A stretch of 64,000 nt of DNA from Micromonospora chaiyaphumensis (GTDB lineage: Bacteria > Actinomycetota > Actinomycetes > Mycobacteriales > Micromonosporaceae), in the NCBI RefSeq assembly GCF_900091435.1, contig NZ_FMCS01000002.1, forward strand, positions 496,001-560,000, written 5' to 3'. The notes beneath the pieces are model-generated. The model was not told where the DNA came from, made no database searches, and saw nothing but the letters and a program-made list of their open reading frames with translations. Below, in pieces: positions 5,159 through 57,795 of this stretch. The stretch's first letter is position 1. Each line of letters begins with the position of its first letter. Made by a program: the position numbers and the translations under genes.

Positions 5159-5439
5159 CCCACCCGTCACCGCGCCGGCGACCCGCCCGCGCCCGATGTC
5201 CGGTTAAACCGTGACGACCGCCACCTGCGGAAATCGGGGCCGGCAGCGGCCCGTTGCACCTCTCGTACGAGCGAAACCAACGAGCGATACCAGCGAGCGG
5301 GCGGCAGGCCCGCCGCCCCCGGTGAGCGAGCGGGGCCGCGCCCTGGAGCGCACCGAGAATCCCCGAGGCACGCCGAGCGCCACTCCCGGTGCCGCGTCTC
5401 CGGACCCCGGCGACGTCTACCCCCGAATGGAGCTTCGAC

Positions 5440-6060
5440 ATGAACTCGATCTTCCGTAAGAGCATGCTGTCCGTCGCCGGCCTCATGGTGTGCGGCGGGA
5501 CCGTCGTCGGTCCGGCTGTCGCCGCGCAGGCCGCGCCGGCGACCGCCGGCAAGGGCAAGGGCGAGCGCAGCGCCGGCTACGAGTACGAGGCGCAGCCGAA
5601 CTTCTTCTACTGCGGCCCCGCCTCGACCCGGATCGCCCTGTCGGCCGAGGGCAAGGAGGTCAGCCAGGACGAGCTGGCCGCCAAGCTGGGCACCACCGAG
5701 AACGGCACCGACTCGGCCATCGACATCACCCGGGTGCTGAACGAGTACACGGGTGGCAAGTACAAGACCACCGAGATCCGGGACGACGTGGCCACCAAGG
5801 AGCAGGTCGAGCGGCTGCGGGCGGACGTCCGGGCCGCCGTGGACCAGGGCCGGCCGGTCGTCGCCAACATCCTGGGCGGCGCGCTGGACATCGACGGTGT
5901 CGAGCACAGCTACCCCGGCCACTACCTGACCGTGGTGGAGTACAAGGACGACGGCAACACGGTGCTGATCGCCGACCCGGCCAGCCCGAACGAGCCGACG
6001 TACTGGATGGACGTGACCGAGCTGGCCAACTGGATCGCCGGCCGCGGTTACAGCTCCTGA
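5440..6060 (+). CDS. Secreted C39-like papain-fold cysteine peptidase
   Basis: A 206-residue exported protein. ATG 5440 begins a signal peptide (MNSIFRKSMLSVAGLMVCGG, then a cleavage region near AAQAAPA around residue 32). The mature part matches the C39-like family: Cys58 in NFFYCGPAS is the nucleophile, His161 in YPGHYLTV and Asp179 in LIADPA complete the triad. There is no membrane or ABC domain, so this is a free-standing peptidase rather than a bacteriocin exporter. Its target is unknown. It is monocistronic and ends at a terminator. Confidence 0.85.
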   Translation: MNSIFRKSMLSVAGLMVCGGTVVGPAVAAQAAPATAGKGKGERSAGYEYEAQPNFFYCGPASTRIALSAEGKEVSQDELAAKLGTTENGTDSAIDITRVLNEYTGGKYKTTEIRDDVATKEQVERLRADVRAAVDQGRPVVANILGGALDIDGVEHSYPGHYLTVVEYKDDGNTVLIADPASPNEPTYWMDVTELANWIAGRGYSS

Positions 6061-6070
6061 CCGAGCATCG

Positions 6071-6108
6071 AAGGGCCGGTCTCCCCGAGCGGGAGGCCGG
6101 CCCTTTCC
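6071..6108 (+). terminator. Intrinsic terminator after the C39-like gene
   Basis: 15-bp stem (6071-6085 with 6091-6105) with one G-U type pair, 5-nt loop, then TTTCC. It begins 10 nt after the stop codon. Confidence 0.85.
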
Positions 6109-6133
6109 GTCTCCGGCCCCGGGGCGGCCCCGT

Positions 6134-6139
6134 TAGAGT
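6134..6139 (+). promoter_or_regulatory. -10 box TAGAGT, leaderless layout
   Basis: TAGAGT, 6 nt, then GTG at 6146 without a ribosome site. Confidence 0.6.
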
Positions 6140-6145
6140 CTGACC

Positions 6146-6820
6146 GTGCCGCGACCGGTGATCTTCGACCTGTTCCACACCCTGGTGCCCGGTGGGGACC
6201 CCGAACGGGACCGGGTGGTCGGTGAGATGGCGCTGATGGTGGGGGTGGAGCCGGCCGCGCTGGTCGAGGCGTACCACGCCACCTGGCGGGACCGGATGAC
6301 CGGCTGGGACGCCGCGGAGACCGTACGCGTCCTGGCCCGGCGGCTCGGCGGCACGCCCACCGAGGAGCAGGTGGCCCGGGCGGCCGCGCACCGCCGGGAG
6401 CTGGCCCGGCGGCTGCTGGGCCGTGTCCGGCCGTCGACCCTGGCGGTGCTGGACGCGCTGCGTGCCGACGGCCACCCGATCGGGCTGGTCAGCAACGCCA
6501 CCGCGGAGACCGCCGAGGCGTGGCCGTCGACCGGCCTGGCCCGCCGCTTCGACGTCTCGGTCTTCTCCAGCGACGTGGGCCTGGCCAAGCCCGACCCGGC
6601 GATCTACCGGCTCGCGGCCGAACGCCTCGGTGTCGCGCCGGGCGACTGTGTCTTCGTCGGCGACGGCGCGGACGGCGAGTTGGCCGGCGCCGCGGCGGTC
6701 GGCATGACGGTGGTCCGGACGACCGAGCACAACGACACCGACCCGAGCTGGGCCGGCCGGGCGCTGACCGCCCTCGGCGAGCTGCCCGACCTGCTCCACG
6801 AGCCGGCCCGGGGGCGCTGA
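6146..6820 (+). CDS. HAD-superfamily hydrolase, haloacid-dehalogenase-like
   Basis: A 224-residue HAD protein. The nucleophile Asp8 sits in VIFDLFHTL; the usual second Asp of the DxD motif is Phe10, as in haloacid-dehalogenase-like members, so phosphatase activity is uncertain. A helical cap spans about residues 20-90. Motif II is GLVSNAT, motif III is LAKPDPAIY, and motif IV is VFVGDGADGE. The substrate is unknown. It is a single gene with its own leaderless promoter and converges on the alkaline phosphatase gene. Confidence 0.83.
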   Translation: MPRPVIFDLFHTLVPGGDPERDRVVGEMALMVGVEPAALVEAYHATWRDRMTGWDAAETVRVLARRLGGTPTEEQVARAAAHRRELARRLLGRVRPSTLAVLDALRADGHPIGLVSNATAETAEAWPSTGLARRFDVSVFSSDVGLAKPDPAIYRLAAERLGVAPGDCVFVGDGADGELAGAAAVGMTVVRTTEHNDTDPSWAGRALTALGELPDLLHEPARGR

Positions 6821-6825
6821 CCCGG

Positions 6826-6860
6826 CGGCGCCCTCCCGCCACGGGGACGGGAGGGCGCCG
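6826..6860. terminator. Bidirectional terminator
   Basis: 13-bp perfect stem (6826-6838 with 6848-6860) and 9-nt loop between two convergent stop codons. Confidence 0.75.
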
Positions 6861-6871
6861 GGAGCCGCCGG

Positions 6872-8134
6872 TCAGTGGGTGAGGATCTGGGCCAGCACCT
6901 CGTGCACGTGGGTGTTCGGGTGCTTGCCGGTGAACTGCTCGGCCAGCGGCCCGTACGCGGTCACCGGCACGTCGGCGCCGGTGTGGCCGCTGGTCGTCCA
7001 GTCCAGCTTGAAGCTCTGGCTGCTGCCCTTGATCGCGAAGGGACCGTCCTCGGCCGAGATGCCGTCACCGGACTCGTCGGAGGCGTCGGTGTCCTCGACG
7101 GTCAGGCCGCCGCACTCGTGGTCGCCGGTCACCACGACGAGGGTGTCCGGGTGGCCGGCCGCGTAGTTGCGGGCGACCGCGACGGCCTTCTCCAGCTCGC
7201 CGAGCGCCTGGAGCATCCGGGTGCCGTTGTTGTTGTGGGCGAACTCGTCGATGCCCTCCTCCTCGACGAGGAGGAAGAAGCCCTTCTTGTTCGTCGACAG
7301 GGTCGAGAGCGCCTTCTCGGTCATCGTGGCCAGGCTGGCCGGCGGGGCGTACACGTCGCCCTGGCCCTCGGGCCGCTGCTGGAACAGCTCCTCGTTGCCG
7401 AAGAGGCCGAGCAGCTTGCCGCCCTTGGCGGCCTGGAGCTCGGCGGCCGTGGAGACGTACCGGTAGCCCTTGCTCTTCGCCTCGGCGATCAGGTCGCCCT
7501 TGGTGCCCTTGCTGGCCTCGGACGGGTCCTCGGCCGGCTGGTCGGGGTACGCGCCGGCGGTGCCGGCCGGCAGCCACCAGTCCTCGCCACCGCCCAGGAT
7601 CACGTCCGGCCGGGTGACCTCCAGGTACTGCCGGGCGATCTCGTCCTGCTTGCCGCGGTCGGCCGTGTTGGCGAAGAAGGCCGCCGGGCTGGCGTCGGTG
7701 ACCTGGGCGGTGGTGACCAGGCCGGTGGACTTGCCGGCCGCCTTGGCCTGGGCGCCGAGGACGGGCAGCGGGTTGCCGTCCACGTCGACGCTGATCGCGC
7801 CGTTGTAGGTCTTCTCGCCGGTGGCCCAGGCGGTCGCCGCGGCGGCCGAGTCGGTGATCGGCGTCTTCGGGTCGTGCGGGCTGGTGGTGAGCTGGCCGGA
7901 GTAGGGCAGCTTGTCCATGGTGAGCTGGCCGTCGAGGCCGGCCAGGTAGAGGCGGGCCGCCTCGCGCTGGGCGGCGGCCATGCCGTCGCCGTTGATGAAG
8001 ATGACGTTGCGGGCCTTGCCCTTCGCCACGCCGGCGTCGGCGGCGGTGATCGGGTTGGCCAGGCTCAGTCCGGCGGCGGCCACTGCCCCGGCGACGACGG
8101 GGGCCAGCAGCCAGCGGCGGGAACGGAATGTCAC
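6872..8134 (-). CDS. Secreted PhoA-type alkaline phosphatase
   Basis: A 420-residue exported metalloenzyme that hydrolyses phosphate monoesters. GTG 8134 is preceded by AGGAGG. The N-terminus (MTFRSRRWLLAPVVAGAVAA) is a signal peptide with paired arginines. Family motifs: FINGDGM with metal ligand Asp50, DSAAAATA with nucleophile Ser96, VEEEGIDEFAHNNN for metal ligands, VTGDHECGGL, and TSGHTGADVPV near the end. The length is normal for the family. I looked for GTTCACC-type PhoP boxes in the 200 bp upstream and saw none, so classical Pho control is not supported. It is monocistronic. Confidence 0.92.
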   Translation of the reverse strand: MTFRSRRWLLAPVVAGAVAAAGLSLANPITAADAGVAKGKARNVIFINGDGMAAAQREAARLYLAGLDGQLTMDKLPYSGQLTTSPHDPKTPITDSAAAATAWATGEKTYNGAISVDVDGNPLPVLGAQAKAAGKSTGLVTTAQVTDASPAAFFANTADRGKQDEIARQYLEVTRPDVILGGGEDWWLPAGTAGAYPDQPAEDPSEASKGTKGDLIAEAKSKGYRYVSTAAELQAAKGGKLLGLFGNEELFQQRPEGQGDVYAPPASLATMTEKALSTLSTNKKGFFLLVEEEGIDEFAHNNNGTRMLQALGELEKAVAVARNYAAGHPDTLVVVTGDHECGGLTVEDTDASDESGDGISAEDGPFAIKGSSQSFKLDWTTSGHTGADVPVTAYGPLAEQFTGKHPNTHVHEVLAQILTH

Positions 8135-28667: not shown

Positions 28668-29279
28668 CTACTTCGCCGGCCCGGTCACGGTGGTCGCGGC
28701 GACCGTGCCGGCGGAGTTGGCCCCCTCCACGGTGACCGCGTCGCCGGCCTTCAGGTCCTTCAGCGCCCCGTCCCTGGCGAGCTTGATCGCGGTGTCACCG
28801 CTGGTCCGTACGGTCACCACGGTGCCGTCCGCGGTCTCCACGTAGAGGGTCGTGCCGTCGACGAGCTTCACCGTGCCGGTGGTGGTGCTCGCGCCGCCGG
28901 CGCCCGAGTTGCCGGTGTTCGGCGCGGCACCGCCCGGCGCCCCGGTCGGCATGCCGGCGGCCGCCGGTCCGCCCGGAAAGCCGAAGCCGCCCGCTCCCCG
29001 CTGCCCACGGCTGGCCGCGGTGGCCGGCCCGGCAGTCGATTCACCGTACGACTTCTGCACCTGGACACCGCCGAGGAAGCCGCCGGTCACGAGTACCAAC
29101 GCCCCGAGGTAGAGAGTTCCCCGGTTCCACCAGCGCCGGCCCGCCGCCGCGGCCAGGTCGCCCGCGAGCCCGTCGCCGCTGCCGGATCCGTCGGCCGGCG
29201 GTGTCAGATCAGGGCCCGGCCCGTCGGCGCCGCGGTGAACTCCCCGCCCCTGACGGCCCCACTTCACTGCTCTGGTCAT
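28668..29279 (-). CDS. Membrane-anchored DUF5666-like protein of the efflux operon
   Basis: A 203-residue protein; ATG 29279 follows GGGGAA. One transmembrane helix (about 51-73, NRGTLYLGALVLVTGGFLGG) separates a short cytoplasmic part from an extracytoplasmic Gly/Ala/Pro-rich linker and a C-terminal small beta domain (about 138-200: TVKLVDGTTLYVETADGTVV, then KDLKAGDAVTVEG), resembling DUF5666. It follows the MacB-like permease by 16 nt and is the last gene of that operon, so it may be an accessory envelope factor for the transporter. Confidence 0.72.
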   Translation of the reverse strand: MTRAVKWGRQGRGVHRGADGPGPDLTPPADGSGSGDGLAGDLAAAAGRRWWNRGTLYLGALVLVTGGFLGGVQVQKSYGESTAGPATAASRGQRGAGGFGFPGGPAAAGMPTGAPGGAAPNTGNSGAGGASTTTGTVKLVDGTTLYVETADGTVVTVRTSGDTAIKLARDGALKDLKAGDAVTVEGANSAGTVAATTVTGPAK

Positions 29280-29295
29280 GGTCACTTCCCCGAAG

Positions 29296-30519
29296 TCACT
29301 CGTAGCGGAGCGCGTCGATCGGCCGGAGGCCGGCGGCGCGGCTGGCCGGGACACTGCCGAAGAACAGCCCGATCGCGACCGAGACGCCGAGTGCCAGCGC
29401 GATCGAACTCGGCACGATCACCGGCTTGACGCCGACGACGGTGAACCGGCTGCCGATCAGCGCCGCCGCCACGCCCAGGCCACCACCGGTCAGGCTGAGC
29501 ATCGTCGCCTCGGCCAGGAACTGGGTGAGGATCACCCGGCGGGGTGCGCCCAGGGCCTTGCGAATGCCGATCTCCCGGGTCCGCTCGGTCACCGTGACCA
29601 GCATGATGTTCGTGATGCCGATCCCGCCGACCAGCAGGCTGATCCCCGCCACGGCGCCGAGCAGGACGGTGAAGGTGTCCGCCGTCTCGGACTGCGTCTC
29701 CAGCAGCTGGGACGCGTTCTGGATCCGGTAGGGGCTCGAATTCGGGTTCGAGCCGTTCCCGGAGCCGGTGGTGGAGACCTTGAGTCGCTGGTCGAGGATC
29801 GTGGCGATCTGCGCCTGGGCCTCGTCCACCCGGTCCGAGCCGGCGGCCTCGACGACGACGGAGCTGACCGGGCCGTACCCCGTCAACGTCTGCTGCACAG
29901 CGGTCAACGGCGCGATGGCGACGTCGTTGGCGTCCTGGAAGCCGGACGACGAACTCTTCTCCTCGAGTACGCCGACCACGGTGAACAGCGAGCCGCCGAC
30001 GGTCACCTCCGCGCCGACCGGCTCGACACCGGGGAAGAGTTCCTCGGCGACGGTCCGCCCGATCACCAGCACCCGCCGGCCCTGCGCGACGTCCTCCTCG
30101 GTGAACGCCGTACCGGTGCCGACCGGCGTGTTCGACGCACCGAAGTACGTCGGGTAGGTGCCGACGAACTGCTGCACCGAGTGGTCGGCACCCTGGTACG
30201 TGATGGTGGCCGAGGCGCTGACCACCGGCGACACCGACCGCACGTCCGGGGCCAGGACGGGATCCCGGAGCGCCTCGGCGGTCTCCACGGTGATCGCCGT
30301 GCTGCTGGCACCGCCGCGCGACGTGCTCTGCACCGTGAGCGTGTTGGTGCCCAGAGCGGCGATCCGGTCGGTGATCTGCTTGGCCGAGCCGTTGCCGACC
30401 GCGACCAGCAGGATCACCGCGCCGACGCCGATGAGGATGCCGAGCGTGGTCAGCGCCGAGCGCAGCTTGTTGGCGGTCACCCCGCGGACGGCGAACCGCA
30501 GGATCTCGAACAGATTCAC
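29296..30519 (-). CDS. MacB-type ABC transporter permease
   Basis: A 407-residue permease of the FtsX/MacB class: one N-terminal helix (LRSALTTLGILIGVGAVILLVA), a large extracytoplasmic domain (about 50-275), and three C-terminal helices with ITNIMLVTVTERTREIGIRKALGA, the hallmark of the family. The ATPase is a separate protein, as usual in Gram-positives. Its ATG overlaps the ATPase stop by 4 nt. With the adaptor and ATPase it would form a tripartite-like mechanotransmission exporter for peptides, drugs or lipoproteins. Confidence 0.9.
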   Translation of the reverse strand: MNLFEILRFAVRGVTANKLRSALTTLGILIGVGAVILLVAVGNGSAKQITDRIAALGTNTLTVQSTSRGGASSTAITVETAEALRDPVLAPDVRSVSPVVSASATITYQGADHSVQQFVGTYPTYFGASNTPVGTGTAFTEEDVAQGRRVLVIGRTVAEELFPGVEPVGAEVTVGGSLFTVVGVLEEKSSSSGFQDANDVAIAPLTAVQQTLTGYGPVSSVVVEAAGSDRVDEAQAQIATILDQRLKVSTTGSGNGSNPNSSPYRIQNASQLLETQSETADTFTVLLGAVAGISLLVGGIGITNIMLVTVTERTREIGIRKALGAPRRVILTQFLAEATMLSLTGGGLGVAAALIGSRFTVVGVKPVIVPSSIALALGVSVAIGLFFGSVPASRAAGLRPIDALRYE

Positions 30520-31322
30520 GGGATTCGCTCCATCGTGGCGGTCGGCTGGTCGAGCATCCGATCCGCACCGCCAGCCCCGGCCGGACCGTCCTGGCGAACG
30601 TCGGCGGAGATCTGCCCGTCGAAGAGCTTGATCAGCCGCCGCGCCCGGCTGCCCACCTCGGGCTCATGGGTGATCAGCACGATCGTCCGGCCGGCGGCGT
30701 TCAGCTCGTCGAAGATCGTCAGCATGTCCGCCGTCGAGCGGCTGTCCAGGTTGCCCGTGGGCTCGTCGGCGAGCACCAGCGCCGGCTCGGTGACCAGCGC
30801 CCGAGCTACCGCGACGCGCTGCTGCTGGCCGCCGGAGAGCTGGTTGGGCTCGTGGCCGGCCCGGCCGGCCAGGCCCACCATGTCCAGCGCGGCGAGCGCC
30901 CGGCGGCGGCGTTCGGCCGCCGGCACCCCGGCGTACGCCAGCGGCAGCTCGACGTTGGCCAGCGCGCTGGTCCTCGGGATCAGGTTGAACGCCTGGAAGA
31001 CGAAGCCGATCAGCCGGTTACGGACCAGCGCGAGCTGACGGTCGTTGAGCCGGCTGACGTCCACCCCGTCCAGCAGGTACCGGCCGGAAGTCGGCACGTC
31101 CAGACAGCCGACGATGTTCATCAGGGTCGACTTGCCGGATCCGGACGAGCCCATGATCGCCACGTAGTCGCCGCGTTCGACGACCAGGTTCACGCCACGC
31201 AGCGCGTGGACGGCCGCCTCGCCCTCGCCGTACACCTTCGTCAGTTCGCGGACGTCGAGCACCGGCGGGTGGCCGGACCCGGTCGACCGGTCATCCGCAC
31301 CGTTCCCCAGTGGCCCGATCAT
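30516..31322 (-). CDS. MacB/LolD-type ABC transporter ATPase
   Basis: A 268-residue ATPase. After a 20-residue N-terminal extension the domain begins LDVRELTKVYGEGEAAVHAL. Walker A is GSSGSGKSTLMN, the family-specific GFVFQAFNL Q-loop follows, signature LSGGQQQRVA, Walker B LVLADEPTGNLD, H-loop LITHE. These are diagnostic of the LolD/MacB branch. It overlaps both neighbours by 4 nt (adaptor upstream, permease downstream). Confidence 0.93.
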   Translation of the reverse strand: MIGPLGNGADDRSTGSGHPPVLDVRELTKVYGEGEAAVHALRGVNLVVERGDYVAIMGSSGSGKSTLMNIVGCLDVPTSGRYLLDGVDVSRLNDRQLALVRNRLIGFVFQAFNLIPRTSALANVELPLAYAGVPAAERRRRALAALDMVGLAGRAGHEPNQLSGGQQQRVAVARALVTEPALVLADEPTGNLDSRSTADMLTIFDELNAAGRTIVLITHEPEVGSRARRLIKLFDGQISADVRQDGPAGAGGADRMLDQPTATMERIP

Positions 31323-32539
31323 CGGCCCGCCCTGCCGCCGTTGATGCCGCCGCCGGTGAATCCGCCGCCACCCGGGAACCCGCCGCCCGGCGGGCCACCG
31401 CCGGGGAAACCGTTGTTGCCGTTGGTGCTGGTCGAGGAGGTCTTCAGGACGACCTGCTCCCCGACCTCCAGGCCGGACGTGATCTCCACGGCCTGGTCGC
31501 CCGTCAGCCCGACCTCGACGGTCCGGGTCACCTGTCGGCCGTTCTGCAGCACGGTCACGGTGTGCCGGTTGCCGACGGTCGTCAGTGCGGCCGAGTTGAC
31601 GTAGACGACGTCGTCCACCTGGCCGACCGTGGCCGACACCTCGACCGTCTGCCCGGCACGTACGCCGTCCGGCAGCCGGTCCAGGCTGAACACCACACCG
31701 TAGGTCACCACGTTGTTCGAGGTGCTCGCGTTCGGGTCGATCGAGGTCAGCTTGCCGGTGGCGGTCGCACCCGCCAACGCGTTCCAGGTGACGGTCGCCG
31801 CCTGGCCGACCTTCAACTTCGTCGCGTCCGCCTCGGCGACAGAGGCGGAGACCTCCAACCTGTTCAGGTCGGCAAGTTCGATGAAGCCGCCGGACGAGCC
31901 GCTCGACGACGAGGTGGAGCTGCTGTTGGTGGATCCGCTCGGCGCGCTGCCCCCGGAACTCCCGTTGCTGCTGCCGCTGGACCCGCCGCCGGAGGAACCG
32001 CCGACGCTGCCGTTGACCGCCACGACCGTACCGGCCATCGGTGCCTTGAGGACGCTGCCGTCAACCGCCTCCTGCGCCTCTTCGACCGCCAGCTCGGCGC
32101 TGGTCACCTGCGCCTCGGCGTCCGTCGTGTCGCTGTCGGCGTCGGTGGCCCGGTCGAGCGCCGCCTCGGCGGCGTCCAGATTCGCCTCGGCGGCCGTGAG
32201 CTGCCGCTTTGCCGAGGACGGATCCACCCGGGCCAGTACCGCACCCTTCTTGACCACGTCACCGACCTTGACCCGGATCTCGCTGACCGTGCCGGCGGTG
32301 GCGAACTCGGCGCTGGCCGTGACGGCGCTGCGCACGGTGCCGGAGGCGGAGACGGTGGAGGTCACCCTGCCCTGCGCGACGGCGACGGTCCGGGTGCCGG
32401 CGCTGCCCGCGGCGGCGCTGGACTCCGGCTTGACGAAGATGGTGTAGGCCCAGGTTCCGCCGGCGGCGATCGCCACCCCGAGTACGGCGTTGACGAGCAC
32501 CGCGGGGCGGCGCACGGAGGGCAGACGTCGCACAGGCAT
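31319..32539 (-). CDS. HlyD/MacA-type periplasmic adaptor with Ser/Gly-rich insert
   Basis: A 406-residue membrane-fusion protein. One N-terminal helix (about 12-33), a lipoyl-like half (VSEIRVKVGDVVKKGAVLARV), a short alpha-hairpin (about 115-165, many Ala/Glu), the second lipoyl half (VLKAPMAGTVVAVNGSVGG), then about 45 residues almost purely Ser/Gly/Asn before a beta-barrel. The C-terminus is Gly/Pro/Phe-rich (PGGGPPGGGFPGGG). It starts the efflux operon at ATG 32539; four phased repeats lie 22 nt upstream. Confidence 0.88.
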   Translation of the reverse strand: MPVRRLPSVRRPAVLVNAVLGVAIAAGGTWAYTIFVKPESSAAAGSAGTRTVAVAQGRVTSTVSASGTVRSAVTASAEFATAGTVSEIRVKVGDVVKKGAVLARVDPSSAKRQLTAAEANLDAAEAALDRATDADSDTTDAEAQVTSAELAVEEAQEAVDGSVLKAPMAGTVVAVNGSVGGSSGGGSSGSSNGSSGGSAPSGSTNSSSTSSSSGSSGGFIELADLNRLEVSASVAEADATKLKVGQAATVTWNALAGATATGKLTSIDPNASTSNNVVTYGVVFSLDRLPDGVRAGQTVEVSATVGQVDDVVYVNSAALTTVGNRHTVTVLQNGRQVTRTVEVGLTGDQAVEITSGLEVGEQVVLKTSSTSTNGNNGFPGGGPPGGGFPGGGGFTGGGINGGRAGR

Positions 32540-32561
32540 GGCGCTCAGCCTGGACCGCCGG

Positions 32562-32605
32562 GCTCGGAGCGAACCCGGGGTTAGCTCGGAGCAGGCTGGG
32601 AACCG
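32562..32605. promoter_or_regulatory. Array of four 11-bp phased repeats upstream of the MacA-like gene
   Basis: Units start at 32562, 32573, 32584 and 32595 (GCTCGGAGCGA, ACCCGGGGTTA, GCTCGGAGCAG, GCTGGGAACCG). The first and third share nine identical bases 22 bp apart. The array ends 22 nt before the adaptor ATG and overlaps the 3' end of the kinase gene. 11-bp phasing is the signature of tandem OmpR/PhoB-type regulator binding. Confidence 0.6.
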
Positions 32606-34161
32606 TGACCGCCGGCCCGGTCCCGGGCCGGCGCGGGACCGGCCGCGCCGACCGGCAGCAGGACCCGGAAGGTGGCGCCCCGACCCACGCCGGTGACCAG
32701 GCCGACCCGGCCGCCGTGGCTCTCCACGATCGCCGCCACGATGGCCAGGCCGAGCCCGGATCCGACCCCCCGGCCGCGGGTACGGCTGGCGTCGACCCGG
32801 TAGAGCCGCTCGAAGACGCGGCCGGCGTGCTCCGCCGGGATGCCCGGACCGGTGTCGGCGACCTCCAGCACCGCCAACCCGGCTGCGTCCAGTCGACCCA
32901 CCCGGACGGTTATCTCCGCCTCGGGTGGGGTGTGCTGCAGCGCGTTGGCCACCAGGTTGGTGGCCACCTGGCGGAGCCGGTGTTCGTCGCCGTGCACGGT
33001 CACCGGCTCGAACCCGCCGTCCTCGGGGCCGCCGTCTGCGTGTCCACTCTCCCCGGCACGCATGGTGGCCAGCCGGACCGGCCGGTCGGGCACCCGGGCA
33101 TGCGCGTCCCGGACGGTGTCGGCGGCGATCGCGAGCAGGTCGACCGGCGCACGCCGCTGCGGGCGGTGCAGATCCAGCCGGGCGAGCAGCAGCAGATCTT
33201 CGACGAGCACACCCATCCGGGCGGCCTCCGCCTCGATCCGGCTCATCGACTCGTCCAGCAGGGGGCCGGGCGGCGCACCACCCCGGCGGTACAGCTCGGC
33301 GAAGCCGCGGATCGAGGTGAGCGGCGTACGCAGCTCGTGGGAGGCGTCCGCGACGAACTGCCGCAGTCGCTGCTCGGAGGCGCTACGCGCGGCCATCTCG
33401 GCACCGATCCGGTCGAGCATGACGTTCAACGCGATGCCGAGCCGGCCGGGCTCGGTGTGCGGGTCCGTGTCCTCGACCCGGCGGGACAGGTCACCCGCGG
33501 TGATCTCCGCCGAGATCGATTCCATCCGCGTCAACGGTCGCAGCCCGATGCGCACCACCGAGGCCGCGACGAGGACGAGCACCAGGACCACGAGCAGCAT
33601 CACCGCGCCGTCGATGAGCAGCAACCCGTCGGCTGTCGCCTCGACGTCGCGCAGGGACTGCCCGGCGACGGCCAGCCCGCCGTCTCCGGTGGGTACGACG
33701 ATCACTCGCCAGTCGCTCCCGCCGTCCTCCGCGTCGACTGTGAACGGCCGCCGGTCGACGGCTCGCGCCAGCAGCTCGGCATGGCCGGGCAACTCCGGCG
33801 GCGAGAGATCCTCGGCGGAGAGCAGGCCAGGCAGCGCGGTGCCGTCCGCGCGGTAGATCAGCACCGCCTGTCCCGGGCCGCCGCCCGGGGGCCGTCCGGG
33901 TCGGGCGAAGCCCTGTCCCAGGTCGGGCGGGATCCCGTTCTGGTAGATCCGGGCCATGCGCGCCAACTGTTCGTCGACCCGGTCGGTGAGATAGGACCGG
34001 AGCAGCACCAGACCCGCGGTGTTCGCCACGATCAGGGCCACTGCGGCGAGTGTCGCGATCACCACCACCAACCGGGACCGCAGCGTCCAGTGACCCCACC
34101 GGCGCGGGAGTGGCAGCCGCCGCACCATGGCGGCAGCCGCCGGGCCCGGCGCCCGGCTCAC
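32581..34161 (-). CDS. Two-component sensor histidine kinase
   Basis: A 526-residue membrane kinase. A helix at about 31-54, an extracytoplasmic sensor of about 130 residues with a Gly/Pro/Arg-rich part, a second helix (about 180-203), then HAMP (VRIGLRPLTRMESISAEI). The phosphoacceptor His is in ADASHELRTPLTSIRGF; ATPase boxes are NLVANALQHTP, DTGPGIP and GSGLGLAI. GTG 34161 overlaps the regulator stop by 4 nt. It probably senses envelope stress and controls the flanking efflux genes (inference). Confidence 0.92.
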   Translation of the reverse strand: MSRAPGPAAAAMVRRLPLPRRWGHWTLRSRLVVVIATLAAVALIVANTAGLVLLRSYLTDRVDEQLARMARIYQNGIPPDLGQGFARPGRPPGGGPGQAVLIYRADGTALPGLLSAEDLSPPELPGHAELLARAVDRRPFTVDAEDGGSDWRVIVVPTGDGGLAVAGQSLRDVEATADGLLLIDGAVMLLVVLVLVLVAASVVRIGLRPLTRMESISAEITAGDLSRRVEDTDPHTEPGRLGIALNVMLDRIGAEMAARSASEQRLRQFVADASHELRTPLTSIRGFAELYRRGGAPPGPLLDESMSRIEAEAARMGVLVEDLLLLARLDLHRPQRRAPVDLLAIAADTVRDAHARVPDRPVRLATMRAGESGHADGGPEDGGFEPVTVHGDEHRLRQVATNLVANALQHTPPEAEITVRVGRLDAAGLAVLEVADTGPGIPAEHAGRVFERLYRVDASRTRGRGVGSGLGLAIVAAIVESHGGRVGLVTGVGRGATFRVLLPVGAAGPAPARDRAGGHGSQPAPS

Positions 34162-34886
34162 TCGTCCGTCGTCCGCGGCAGGCGCAGCGTGTAGCCCACC
34201 CCGCGCAGCGTGTGGATCAGGGGCGGGTCCCACCTGTCGATCTTCTTGCGCAGGTAGTAGACGTACGACTCGACGATCCGGCCGTCGCCGCCGAAGTCGT
34301 AGCCCCACACCCGGTCCATGATCTGTGCCTTGCTGACCACCCGGCCGGCGTTGAGGAGCAGGAAGCGCAGCAGCTTGAACTCGGTGGGGGACAGCTCGAT
34401 CAGCCGGCCGTCACGGCGCACCTCGTGGGCGTCATCGTCGAGTTCCAGGTCGGCGTAGCCCAGCACACCGCTGTCCGGATCGACCCGGCTCCGCCGGAGG
34501 ATGGCCCGGATGCGCAGCACCACCTCCTCCAGACTGAACGGCTTCGTGACGTAGTCGTCCGCGCCGGCGGTGAGTCCCGAGATCCGGTCTTCGACCGCGT
34601 CCCGCGCGGTCAGGAAGAGCACCGGTACCTGCCGGCCGTTGGCCGTGGCCCGCAGCCGCTGCGCCACGGCGAAGCCGTCGAGGTCCGGCATCATCACGTC
34701 GAGGACCACGAGATCCGGCTCGAACTCGGCGACGCTGGTCAGCGCCTCCCGCCCGCCGTTCGCCACCCGTACGTCAAAGTCGATCAGCCGCAGTGTGGCC
34801 GACAACAGGGCGGATATGTTCGGCTCGTCGTCCACCACGAGCACCCTGGCCGGCCGCCGGGCCTGCTCCCCTGCCAGTTGGCGCAC
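34158..34886 (-). CDS. OmpR/PhoB-family response regulator
   Basis: A 242-residue regulator. GTG 34886 follows AGGAGG at normal distance; longer in-frame starts are unlikely. Receiver: Asp19/Asp20 acidic pair, phosphoacceptor Asp63 in VLDVMMPDLDG, Thr in FLTAR, Lys in YVTKPF. Winged-helix DNA-binding domain about 145-238 with LSPTEFKLLRFLLLN and RVWGYDFGGDGRIVESYVYYLRKK (in parts). It pairs with the downstream kinase. Its probable operators are the two 11-bp repeat arrays in front of the flanking adaptor genes. Confidence 0.93.
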   Translation of the reverse strand: MRQLAGEQARRPARVLVVDDEPNISALLSATLRLIDFDVRVANGGREALTSVAEFEPDLVVLDVMMPDLDGFAVAQRLRATANGRQVPVLFLTARDAVEDRISGLTAGADDYVTKPFSLEEVVLRIRAILRRSRVDPDSGVLGYADLELDDDAHEVRRDGRLIELSPTEFKLLRFLLLNAGRVVSKAQIMDRVWGYDFGGDGRIVESYVYYLRKKIDRWDPPLIHTLRGVGYTLRLPRTTDE

Positions 34887-35005
34887 CGCTCTCCTCCTCG
34901 CCTCGGATCCCGGAGAATCTCTATCGGCGTCGGCTGAGAGCCACCTATGAATTACCCCTGCTCCCGCTGAGGCTCGGTGGGCGGTCGGCGCGTCGGTGCC
35001 GGCGG

Positions 35006-36334
35006 TCACCCGTTGACGACCACCTGATCACCCTCCGCGAGACCGGCGGTGATCTCCGTGTACTGGTCACCGCGTACGCCGACGGTGACCTGCCGGGACT
35101 CGGTGCCGACAGCCGTTCGGAGCAACACCGTGCCGGCGTCGCCGGTGATCGCCCCCACCGCCGTGACGGGCACCCGGAGCACACCGGACACCGACTGGAT
35201 CTTGACGCGGACGTTCGCGCTCTGCCCGACCAGGGTCCCCGTCGGCACGTCGACGAAGTCGAGAAGGGCGCCGTACCGGACCATCTGCCCGTCCGTCGTA
35301 CCGACCGGGTCCACCTGGGAGACCGTGGCCGCGAACTCCTCGCCCGGGCGGTCGGCGAGGGTGACCGTCGCCGCGAGACCGACCGCGAGCCGCCCGGCGT
35401 CCGCCTCGGGAAACTTCGCCGACACCGCCATGCCGGCGACATCGCCCAGGGTGATGAAGGTGCCGCCGTCGCTGACCCTGCCGCCCACCGCGCCCGCGAC
35501 CGACAGCACCTTGCCGGCCAGCGGCGCCGTGATCGTGGTACCGGCCAGTGCCTCCTCCGCCTCCGCCACGGCCAGCCGAGCGCTGGTCAGCTGCTGCTGC
35601 GCCCGCAGCACCGGGTCGGTGCCGGTGGCGCCCGACTGCCCGGCGCCCGACTGCCCGCCACGGCTCGGGCAGGTCGCCCCGCTGTCGCCGCCAGGCGCCG
35701 ACGGGCCGGAGCGGCCCGGCTGTCCGGCCGGGTCACGGGTGGGGGTCGGGCCGGCCGGGCTGGGCTTCGCGGTGGGCGTCGGCGACACCGTGGGCCTCGG
35801 GGACTGCGTGGGCGTGGCGGACGAGGCAGGCGTGGGGGACGCCGGGACCGTTGTGGGCGCCACCGCCAGCACCACCGCCGCCCCGCCGCCGCTGGCGGCA
35901 ACGGGGCAGGTGTCGACGGACTGGTCGTCCTGGCTGGCCTCGGCGGTGTCGAGTGCCGCTTCCGCCTTGTCCAGCGCCTGCTGGGCGGAATCCACCCGGT
36001 CCCGGGCATCGGTGGCGTCGATCAGTGCCAACACCTGGCCGGCCTGCACCTCGTCACCCGCGCGGACCCTGACCTCGCTGACCGTGCCGGCCGTGCCGAA
36101 GCTGAGGCTCCGGGTCTGCGCCGGTTGCAGCGCACCCGTCGTCGCCACGGCCAGCGTGACGTCCCCCCGGTCCACGCGAACGGTCGTCGGCGCTTCGGGC
36201 GACCGCGACTCCCCCGTCAACGCGTACGCCGTGGTCGACGCGAGCACTCCGACCACCACGACCAGGCCACCGGCGGTCCACCGCGCCCGCCGGTCACGTC
36301 CCAGCCGCCGCAACGCACTCAGACCGATCCCCAT
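35006..36334 (-). CDS. Orphan HlyD/MacA-type adaptor with Cys-flanked Pro/Thr-rich hairpin tip
   Basis: A 442-residue membrane-fusion protein: N-terminal helix (about 20-40), first lipoyl half (VSEVRVRAGDEVQAGQVLAL), alpha-hairpin strand (about 110-140), then some 100 residues of Pro/Thr/Ser/Gly low complexity replacing the hairpin tip, bounded by TCPVA and TCPSR cysteines. The returning helix (QQQLTSARLAVAEAEEAL), second lipoyl half (TITAPLAGKVLSV) and barrel domains follow. It is not next to its own ATPase/permease, so it may share the MacB-like pair at 29.3-31.3 kb. The regulator gene lies 119 nt downstream. Confidence 0.85.
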   Translation of the reverse strand: MGIGLSALRRLGRDRRARWTAGGLVVVVGVLASTTAYALTGESRSPEAPTTVRVDRGDVTLAVATTGALQPAQTRSLSFGTAGTVSEVRVRAGDEVQAGQVLALIDATDARDRVDSAQQALDKAEAALDTAEASQDDQSVDTCPVAASGGGAAVVLAVAPTTVPASPTPASSATPTQSPRPTVSPTPTAKPSPAGPTPTRDPAGQPGRSGPSAPGGDSGATCPSRGGQSGAGQSGATGTDPVLRAQQQLTSARLAVAEAEEALAGTTITAPLAGKVLSVAGAVGGRVSDGGTFITLGDVAGMAVSAKFPEADAGRLAVGLAATVTLADRPGEEFAATVSQVDPVGTTDGQMVRYGALLDFVDVPTGTLVGQSANVRVKIQSVSGVLRVPVTAVGAITGDAGTVLLRTAVGTESRQVTVGVRGDQYTEITAGLAEGDQVVVNG

Positions 36335-36356
36335 GGCGAGGAGTCTGCGGGCAGCG

Positions 36357-36400
36357 CCTCGCAGTTCCCTCGGCCAAACCTCGGAGTTGCCTCAGAGGCA
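36357..36400. promoter_or_regulatory. Array of four 11-bp phased repeats upstream of the orphan adaptor gene
   Basis: Units CCTCGCAGTTC, CCTCGGCCAAA, CCTCGGAGTTG and CCTCAGAGGCA start at 36357, 36368, 36379 and 36390, each 11 bp apart and each beginning CCTC. The array ends 22 nt before the adaptor ATG, exactly as in the array at 32562. A single CCGAGG unit in the opposite orientation (36431-36436) faces the lipoprotein gene. Confidence 0.7.
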
Positions 36401-36539
36401 GCGGGCCGGAACGGCGCCGCGCGGCGAATTCCGAGGCAGCTACCAGCTTCGTCCGACGTGGCCCGGAGGTGGCCCGGGTTGCCTGGATCGACGCCGCGGA
36501 AGCCGGACGGACCCGGGGCGCCACACAGAGGAGGTTTCG

Positions 36540-37127
36540 GTGCTGAACCGGCGAGCGCGATGGGGCCTGGCCCTGGCGACGGGATGTGCCGCGTTGTTCG
36601 TGACAGCGGCGTGTGGTGGATCGGACGACGGCGCGGCGGGCGACGGCACGCCGGGGGCCGGTGATCCGGCCGGCGGCTTCGCCGCGTACGCGAGTTGCCT
36701 CAAGGAACAGGGCATCGACCTCCCCGACAATCTGCCGACCGGTCGGCCGTCCGGCCAGCCCCGGCCCGACGGTTCGGGGCGGCCCTTCCCGTCCGGCACG
36801 CCGTCGCCCGGCTTCTCCGGCCGACCGGGCGGTGGGCGCGGTGGACCCGGCGGGGGCATGGACCGGTTCCGCCCGGACGGGGTCGACGACGCGGCCTGGC
36901 AGAAGGCGCAGGATGCCTGCCGTTCCGCGCTGCCCACCGGCGGGCCGGGCGGGAACCGCGGGCCCGGGCAGAACGGCGGGCAGGGCACGAACACGGCGTA
37001 CGCCAACTGTCTCGCCGACCGGGGCGTACAGCTGACCGCCGGCCAGAACACGTCCGACGCGAAGGTCGCCGAGGCCCTGACGGCGTGCAAGGCGCTCAGC
37101 CCCGCCCCGTCCCCCGCGGCGAGCTGA
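36540..37127 (+). CDS. Putative lipoprotein with duplicated AYxxC modules
   Basis: A 195-residue exported protein; GTG 36540 follows GAGGAGG. The signal peptide ends in VTAAC (Cys25), a lipobox. The mature part has two similar modules: AYASCLKEQGIDL followed by WQKAQDACRSALP, and AYANCLADRGVQL followed by VAEALTACKALSP, each with a cysteine pair about 60 residues or less apart, separated by Gly/Pro/Arg-rich linkers. No family of known function. It is divergent from the orphan adaptor and shares its control region. Confidence 0.75.
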   Translation: MLNRRARWGLALATGCAALFVTAACGGSDDGAAGDGTPGAGDPAGGFAAYASCLKEQGIDLPDNLPTGRPSGQPRPDGSGRPFPSGTPSPGFSGRPGGGRGGPGGGMDRFRPDGVDDAAWQKAQDACRSALPTGGPGGNRGPGQNGGQGTNTAYANCLADRGVQLTAGQNTSDAKVAEALTACKALSPAPSPAAS

Positions 37128-57520: not shown

Positions 57521-57795
57521 TTCACGTCATCAAGTTCCTAGCCGCTGGACAACAGGTGCCCAGGCCGAGCGGTGAGCCGGCGCACCGGCGAACTCGACGC
57601 ACTCGACGCACCGGCGAACCGGCGAACCGGCGGACTCGGCGCAGCGGCGGACTCGGCGCAGCGGCGGACTCGGCGCAGCGGCGGACTCGGCGCAGCGGCG
57701 GACTCGGCGCACCGGCCCCAAAACGCCGACGCCATGCATCGGGCGCACGTTGTCAACGGACTGCCGCGATCCATTCACGTCATCAAGTTCCTAGC
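57521..57795. repeat. 22-bp direct repeats flanking the tandem-repeat tract
   Basis: TTCACGTCATCAAGTTCCTA plus GC occurs identically at 57521-57542 and 57774-57795, 253 bp apart. The inner 14 bp recur inverted at 57371-57386 with one change near the end. Confidence 0.65.
57629..57713 (+). repeat. 17-bp tandem repeat (five units)
   Basis: GGCGGACTCGGCGCAGC repeats head to tail at 57629, 57646, 57663, 57680 and 57697; the fifth unit has one change. Degenerate 9-bp forms (GCGAACCGG-like) precede it from about 57582. Confidence 0.85.

Follow-up and report, generated by a model that had tools for sequence, protein, structure and literature searches.

Phased heptamer arrays as probable operators of a PhoP-type regulator in a transporter cluster of Micromonospora chaiyaphumensis

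Which protein reads the short repeats in front of two adaptor genes in a 64,000-nt stretch of the Micromonospora chaiyaphumensis genome, and which promoters do these repeats serve? The stretch (the window in what follows; C3:496001-560000 of a 6.74-Mb genome) carries a transporter cluster that runs on the minus strand from 36334 to 28668 in the order periplasmic adaptor (A1), response regulator (RR), sensor histidine kinase (HK), second adaptor (A2), ATP-binding cassette (ABC) ATPase, permease and a tail gene, with the gene of a small putative lipoprotein (LIP) divergent on the plus strand. We consider it very probable that the repeats are operators of the cluster's own PhoP-type regulator, which would activate the promoters of the cluster. 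The local OmpR-type regulon that an initial annotation of the locus had proposed is well supported by the sequence comparisons described here.

The repeats themselves are as the initial annotation described them: CCTC recurs four times before A1 at exact 11-bp steps (36357, 36368, 36379 and 36390), GCTCGGAGC stands at 32562 and again, 22 bp away, at 32584, and each array lies exactly 22 nt from the ATG of its adaptor gene. In heptamer register, both arrays consist of four units with 4-bp spacers and the consensus CTCCGAG. Two further arrays had been missed, one facing LIP and a weaker, differently spelled one before RR, the first two units of which are unconvincing in the window.

36358-36397, minus strand: A1 array, CTCTGAG-N4-CTCCGAG-N4-GGCCGAG-N4-CTGCGAG, read toward A1
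32563-32602, minus strand: A2 array, TTCCCAG-N4-CTCCGAG-N4-CCCCGGG-N4-CTCCGAG, overlapping the last HK codons
36429-36468, plus strand: LIP array, TTCCGAG-N4-CTACCAG-N4-GTCCGAC-N4-CCCGGAG, facing LIP
34934-34973, minus strand: RR array, GCCTCAG-N4-AGCAGGG-N4-TTCATAG-N4-CTCTCAG

Taken as a single sequence, the window makes a modest case, in which the arrays are only mildly unusual. Period-11 self-similarity at the level of the arrays occurs at 5 of 63,960 window positions, compared with 1.3 expected from an order-1 Markov sequence. Neither the A1 nor the A2 array was reported by Tandem Repeats Finder run on the window, and neither is among the families listed by a repeat-family search of it. 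It is conservation, rather than the window statistics, that makes the arrays significant.

Searching 160 genomes of the genus at E ≤ 1e-90 recovered the A2 adaptor in 26, its own included, and Micromonospora maritima is one named relative carrying the cluster. The comparison set comprises the window and 25 same-genus clusters; one locus, L003, was dropped from the counts as a duplicate of L106 on the same contig. All 25 related clusters contain A1, RR, HK, A2, the ATPase and the permease, 23 the tail gene and 21 LIP; in three genomes LIP and the A1 start lie on another contig. Every one of the 26 clusters has an A2 array of four heptamers in exact 11-bp steps, with 23 nt (24 clusters) or 22 nt (two clusters) between the last heptamer and the ATG. 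The test that the initial annotation had set, conservation of the repeats in relatives, did not refute its proposal. A1 arrays, located via the in-frame start (by hand in L106 and L112-L114), are present in all 23 loci that have the A1 start on the fetched stretch, and the remaining three genomes have A1 profile matches on other contigs. In 20 of 23 loci the LIP array agrees with the consensus at 18 or more of its 28 positions. The fraction of matches at lag 11 is 0.50 for the 23 A1 arrays, 0.52 for the 26 A2 arrays and 0.57 for the 23 LIP arrays, against 0.18-0.34 at other lags from 5 to 19, a comparison that is descriptive and no independent test because the stretches were picked by an 11-bp motif score. 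Heptamer columns carry 1.38-1.50 bits of information, about twofold the 0.66-0.75 bits of the spacers.

The array also stays beside A2 where about 1.3 kb part the kinase from the adaptor (L106 and L119). In a further genome, G058 (L170:8560-9401), whose array is not counted among the 26, the A2 promoter array is preserved as far as the ATG, after which a transposase gene (DDE_Tnp_IS240) takes the place of A2; the remainder of the fetched stretch yielded neither A2 nor ATPase nor permease, whereas LIP, A1, RR and HK remain. Because the A2 array is kept in L106, L119 and G058, coding constraint fails to explain it.

Scanning with an 11-bp-phased matrix, as the initial annotation had suggested, placed strong matches at the cluster only, both in the own genome and in the 160 genomes of the genus. 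The profile used (R1) has 56 columns and was built from 44 of 69 distinct arrays scoring at least 18, with the weak LIP arrays of L112-L114 excluded beforehand. In the own genome the arrays of A1 (E = 7.1e-11), A2 (9.0e-9) and LIP (5.9e-8) are the only three sites at E ≤ 1e-4, and the next match stands at 0.038. A second model, which leaves out all arrays of the window, L097, L110 and L111, gives 3.1e-10 for A1, 8.4e-6 for LIP and 7.7e-5 for A2, with the next match at 0.016. The six weaker candidates inspected all lie inside open frames of at least 150 codons, which is weak evidence of coding in GC-rich DNA. Across the genus there are 76 profile matches in 27 genomes, two or three in each and all at the cluster. 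These 27 are the 26 genomes with A2 and G058, and the other 133 have neither an array match at E ≤ 0.001 (stricter filters lose some weak matches) nor an A2 at E ≤ 1e-90. Weaker sites spelled like the RR array may occur elsewhere, because R1 does not find that array. A loose two-unit CTCCGAG pattern with 2 mismatches, which gave 78 sites against 38 in the control, was too loose and was replaced by the 56-column profile.

RR belongs to the OmpR/PhoB type (Response_reg PF00072, E = 1.8e-28; Trans_reg_C PF00486, E = 7.6e-26). The solved sequences closest to it are those of Mycobacterium tuberculosis PhoP (E about 2e-80; PDB 5ed4, 3r0j and 9ji3), and the next protein is PrrA at 1.8e-52. That OmpR/PhoB regulators bind tandem repeats about 11 bp apart, as the initial annotation stated, holds for this closest solved relative: as described in the structural study, PhoP binds 7-bp direct repeats as a tandem dimer with a strict 4-bp spacer, binds DNA with three or four motifs more tightly, and through Asn212 contacts A6, C7 and A8 as well as an opposite-strand T within T4-C5-A6-C7-A8-G9-C10 (PMC4832192). 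The cluster shares with PhoP the regulator family, the heptamer direct repeats with a 4-bp spacer and arrays of more than two motifs, and the exact 11-bp phase of all 26 A2 arrays reproduces the PhoP spacing. The heptamer differs, however. Instead of TCACAGC (C/TTCACAG in the register used here), the pooled units read CTC(C/T)GAG, with G in 232, C in 51 and A in 5 of 288 units at position 5, and the centre A6 C7 of the PhoP box TCACAGC-N4-TCACAGC becomes C/T G in most cluster units. Because of this difference the arrays are a variant of the PhoP box, not a copy; we read them as a PhoP-type box with an altered centre and four units, of a kind that is already known.

The recognition helix of RR differs from that of M. 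tuberculosis PhoP by V211G, N212R, V213I, S219Y and R223K and is otherwise alike. Arg212 and Tyr219 (PhoP numbering) are found in 26 of 26 cluster regulators, where a one-to-one PhoP orthologue would have Asn212 and Ser219, and the operator departs from that of PhoP at the equivalents of A6 and C7, the bases contacted by residue 212. Two PhoP-type paralogues in the same genome, C8:92367 and C2:219946, are 61-62% identical and both have Asn212, the former also keeping Ser219. Because of its PhoP kinship and Arg212, the changed operator centre, and the Asn212 of the paralogues, the local regulator is the most likely reader of the arrays. This kinship and the co-occurrence of arrays and cluster support the initial annotation in assigning both adaptors to the regulator encoded between their arrays; its more guarded suggestion that the lipoprotein might be controlled too can be upgraded, because LIP has an array of its own. 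The predicted strong sites of the cluster regulator are confined to its own transporter cluster, unlike the PhoP regulon of M. tuberculosis, which is broad. Among open-access papers judged by title, none except the PhoP structure paper dealt with the cluster or with an operator code set by residue 212, and the MprA-box literature, likewise judged by title, offered nothing useful.

If RR binds the arrays, what would it do there? At A1, A2 and LIP, a stretch of 10 nt separates the fourth heptamer from a -10-like hexamer downstream.

36342-36347, minus strand: -10-like hexamer CAGACT, separated by 10 nt from the A1 array and by 7 nt from the A1 ATG, a leaderless geometry
32547-32552, minus strand: -10-like hexamer CAGGCT, separated by 10 nt from the A2 array and by 7 nt from the A2 ATG
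36479-36484, plus strand: -10-like hexamer TTGCCT, 10 nt after the LIP array, proposed from position and conservation
34918-34923, minus strand: -10-like hexamer TAGAGA, 10 nt after the RR array, where the scoring favoured TA at that offset

Position 6 of the hexamer is T in all 72 A1, A2 and LIP sites, position 2 is A in all 49 A1 and A2 sites, and position 1 is T in all 23 LIP sites. The hexamer lies 7-8 nt from the ATG at A1 (23 sites) and 7 nt (24 sites) or 6 nt (2 sites) at A2; the LIP gene is preceded by a leader that includes a GGAGG-type ribosome site. Promoters of M. tuberculosis are described as lacking a conserved -35 and as carrying a TANNNT -10 whose centre lies 7-12 nt upstream of the start (PMC3898074). 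Given this pattern and the placement of the hexamers, we infer that the A1 and A2 promoters are leaderless and activator-dependent, with the bound regulator replacing the -35. In Escherichia coli, PhoB, also of the OmpR/PhoB family, works from tandem 11-bp repeats that replace the -35 about 10 bp from the -10; its pho box has another operator sequence and regulates phosphate genes.

The layout seems to predate the genus. In a class-wide sample, an A2-type adaptor was found in 37 of 394 genomes at E ≤ 1e-35, and the 36 other genomes together with L034 and L044 supplied 38 distant adaptor starts, which were scored for an array, 10 nt, a -10, 5-9 nt and a start. Scores of at least 14.5 were obtained at 14 of the 38 (about 0.26 expected) and of at least 13.5 at 19 (about 0.51 expected), although the high-scoring loci come from few families and are not independent. 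Because distant A2-type adaptors share the geometry, the promoter layout would be older than the genus, with units spelled differently.

Put together, these features suggest the following sequence of events. HK (32581-34128) would phosphorylate RR (34158-34886), and phosphorylated RR would assemble in tandem, probably as a tetramer, across four 7-bp subsites separated by 4-bp spacers. Ending 10 nt ahead of a weak -10, the array would stand in for the -35 and recruit RNA polymerase, so that transcription would begin at or next to the start codons of A1 and A2 (leaderless) and upstream of LIP, the genes behind A1 and A2 presumably being co-transcribed. RR probably controls its own promoter too, via the weaker array. 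The predicted regulon would be limited to the cluster: two adaptors, ATPase, permease, tail gene, lipoprotein, regulator and kinase. The envelope-stress role proposed for it is putative, based on gene content alone.

Several observations weigh against this reading. The hexamers are imperfect versions of TANNNT: none of the 23 LIP sites has A at position 2, and none of the 49 A1 and A2 sites has T at position 1. Within the A2 array the third unit is degenerate. Three of the 23 loci (L112-L114) have a weak LIP array, four cluster genomes (G024, G114, G136 and G146; L098 and L112-L114) give no LIP profile match at E ≤ 0.001, and in the window alone the LIP array is not significant, with 459 positions as good against 591 expected. 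Many of the genomes with R1 matches had themselves supplied arrays for building R1, G058 having supplied none. Of the distant adaptor loci, 19 of 38 fall below 13.5, gene starts there being uncertain. At the RR promoters, period 11 stands out in each of the 26 clusters (matched by at most 5 of 100 shuffles), with a mean best score of 23.2 compared with 15.5-17.2 at six other periods, but the scoring partly presupposed this result by rewarding AG unit ends and a TA -10 at a fixed offset, and because it favoured both, neither is independent.

It is unlikely, though conceivable, that RR binds the arrays and represses, or autorepresses. An array just upstream of a -10 can also block polymerase, and its position leaves the sign unfixed, but the imperfect hexamers and the exact 10-nt placement at A1, A2 and LIP fit activation: a weak -10 would probably need help, because M. 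tuberculosis promoters are described as resting on TANNNT without a conserved -35 (PMC3898074). We regard it as improbable that another OmpR/PhoB-type regulator, for example one of the two paralogues, reads the arrays while the local RR acts elsewhere. The paralogues are close relatives of RR, and because the units of the RR promoter in many relatives read ACAG, as in PhoP, and not CGAG, cross-talk at that promoter is possible. However, array matches occur solely where the cluster occurs, regulators with Asn212, as in both paralogues, mostly have C at position 5 of their own upstream pairs, and a near-PhoP two-unit pattern found 8 sites in the own genome, compared with 7 in the reversed control, and none in the cluster. 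That the repeats are a chance outcome of GC-rich, coding-constrained sequence is hardly credible, for although the window-only statistics are weak and the A2 array overlaps the last codons of the kinase, phase and distance to A2 are held in 26 of 26 clusters, also across the gap of about 1.3 kb, and G058 keeps its array though a transposase gene replaces A2.

Activation by the local regulator, then, is the reading we prefer. A genome-collection scan returned at least 595 regulators, of which 80 were kept and, after L003 was dropped, 79 related genes remained. A phased pair of YTCnnAG type lies within about 260 nt upstream in 51 of the 79, compared with 8 for reversed sequences and 4.3 for shuffles, and period 11 alone stands out (51 against 2-14 at other periods). 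A three-unit scan of the 79 loci at a high threshold had given few arrays and was replaced by two-unit scans upstream of the regulator genes. The unit centre tracks residue 212: with Asn it is mostly AC, with Ser (one clade) AT, with His AG or TG, and with Gly it is mixed. The mutual information between residue 212 and base 5 is 0.251, a value reached by 0 of 2000 shuffles when kinship is ignored. The 79 regulators fall into 16 clades, and differences among Asn, Ser and His persist inside one clade; the Arg/Tyr class of the cluster probably has a single origin. A strict rule by which Arg212 means G was rejected: L006 (Arg212, Ser219) has a TC-centred pair upstream of its regulator, and units at RR promoters of cluster members are often ACAG.

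Tentatively, these data would fit a PhoP-type operator code in which residue 212 sets the middle of YTCnnAG (Asn giving AC, Ser in one clade AT, His AG or TG, and Arg with Tyr219 CG or TG). Changing residue 212 might then have given the module a private operator and insulated it from its PhoP paralogues, while different actinobacterial families kept the layout (array, 10 nt, -10, 6-8 nt, start codon). As a separate observation, in another actinobacterial family (L182-L190) many transporter clusters have two PhoP-type regulators with Asn or Gly at 212, the first following the transporter and the other close to a divergent second adaptor.

With these assignments a two-component system of unknown function gains a base-resolved predicted regulon, and both adaptors, the pump and the lipoprotein are predicted to act together. 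It would belong to a natural PhoP-type series in which the operator centre appears to shift along with one helix residue, and because of this co-variation DNA recognition and paralogue insulation should be testable with a few point mutants. The small number and exactness of its strong sites could also make the system useful as a well-insulated switch.

The genes of the cluster are as follows.

36540-37127, plus strand: LIP, small putative lipoprotein with a GTG start, divergent from A1; open frame with an N-terminal lipobox-like ...LFVTAAC
35006-36334, minus strand: A1, HlyD/MacA-type periplasmic adaptor; Pfam HlyD_D23 and HlyD_3, and RND_mfp
34158-34886, minus strand: RR, OmpR/PhoB-type response regulator; closest solved relative M. 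tuberculosis PhoP, Arg at PhoP-212 and Tyr at PhoP-219
32581-34128, minus strand: HK, sensor histidine kinase; HAMP, HisKA and HATPase_c
31319-32539, minus strand: A2, HlyD/MacA-type periplasmic adaptor; family-profile matches including RND_mfp
30516-31322, minus strand: ABC transporter ATPase, MacB/LolD-like; family-profile matches
29296-30519, minus strand: ABC permease; MacB_PCD and FtsX
28668-29285, minus strand: tail gene, conserved protein, last of the run; homologue at 23 of 25 related clusters

Neither LIP nor the tail gene has a Pfam or NCBIfam match. The permease with MacB_PCD and FtsX and the RND_mfp-type adaptors place the transporter among MacAB-type tripartite efflux systems by domain content, but it is MacAB-like, not MacAB. 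The adaptors match RND_mfp above its cut-off and MacA below (99-101 bits, with the equivalog cut-off at 342), and for the ATPase and the permease the best matches are the two halves of MacB, again below the cut-off (197 and 244 bits against 966). Unlike in MacAB, the ATPase and permease are separate proteins, and there are two adaptors and a dedicated two-component system. A Gram-negative outer membrane is not expected in this host, unlike in the hosts of MacAB.

A homologue of the tail gene often precedes the regulator gene in other families. Between HK and A2, L106 (about 6330-7600) and L119 (about 5670-6945) have an additional open frame, about 370-390 codons long, whose start resembles a signal peptide; its assignment as a hydrolase was dropped, as the L106 frame, the one tested, has no Pfam match. 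In genome G128 the DNA between the genes of the ATPase and the permease (L110, about 5310-5540) contains a GC-rich repeat, about 60 bp long, in several copies. Elsewhere in the window, a 17-bp tandem repeat of 6.9 copies with 92% matches occupies 57601-57716.

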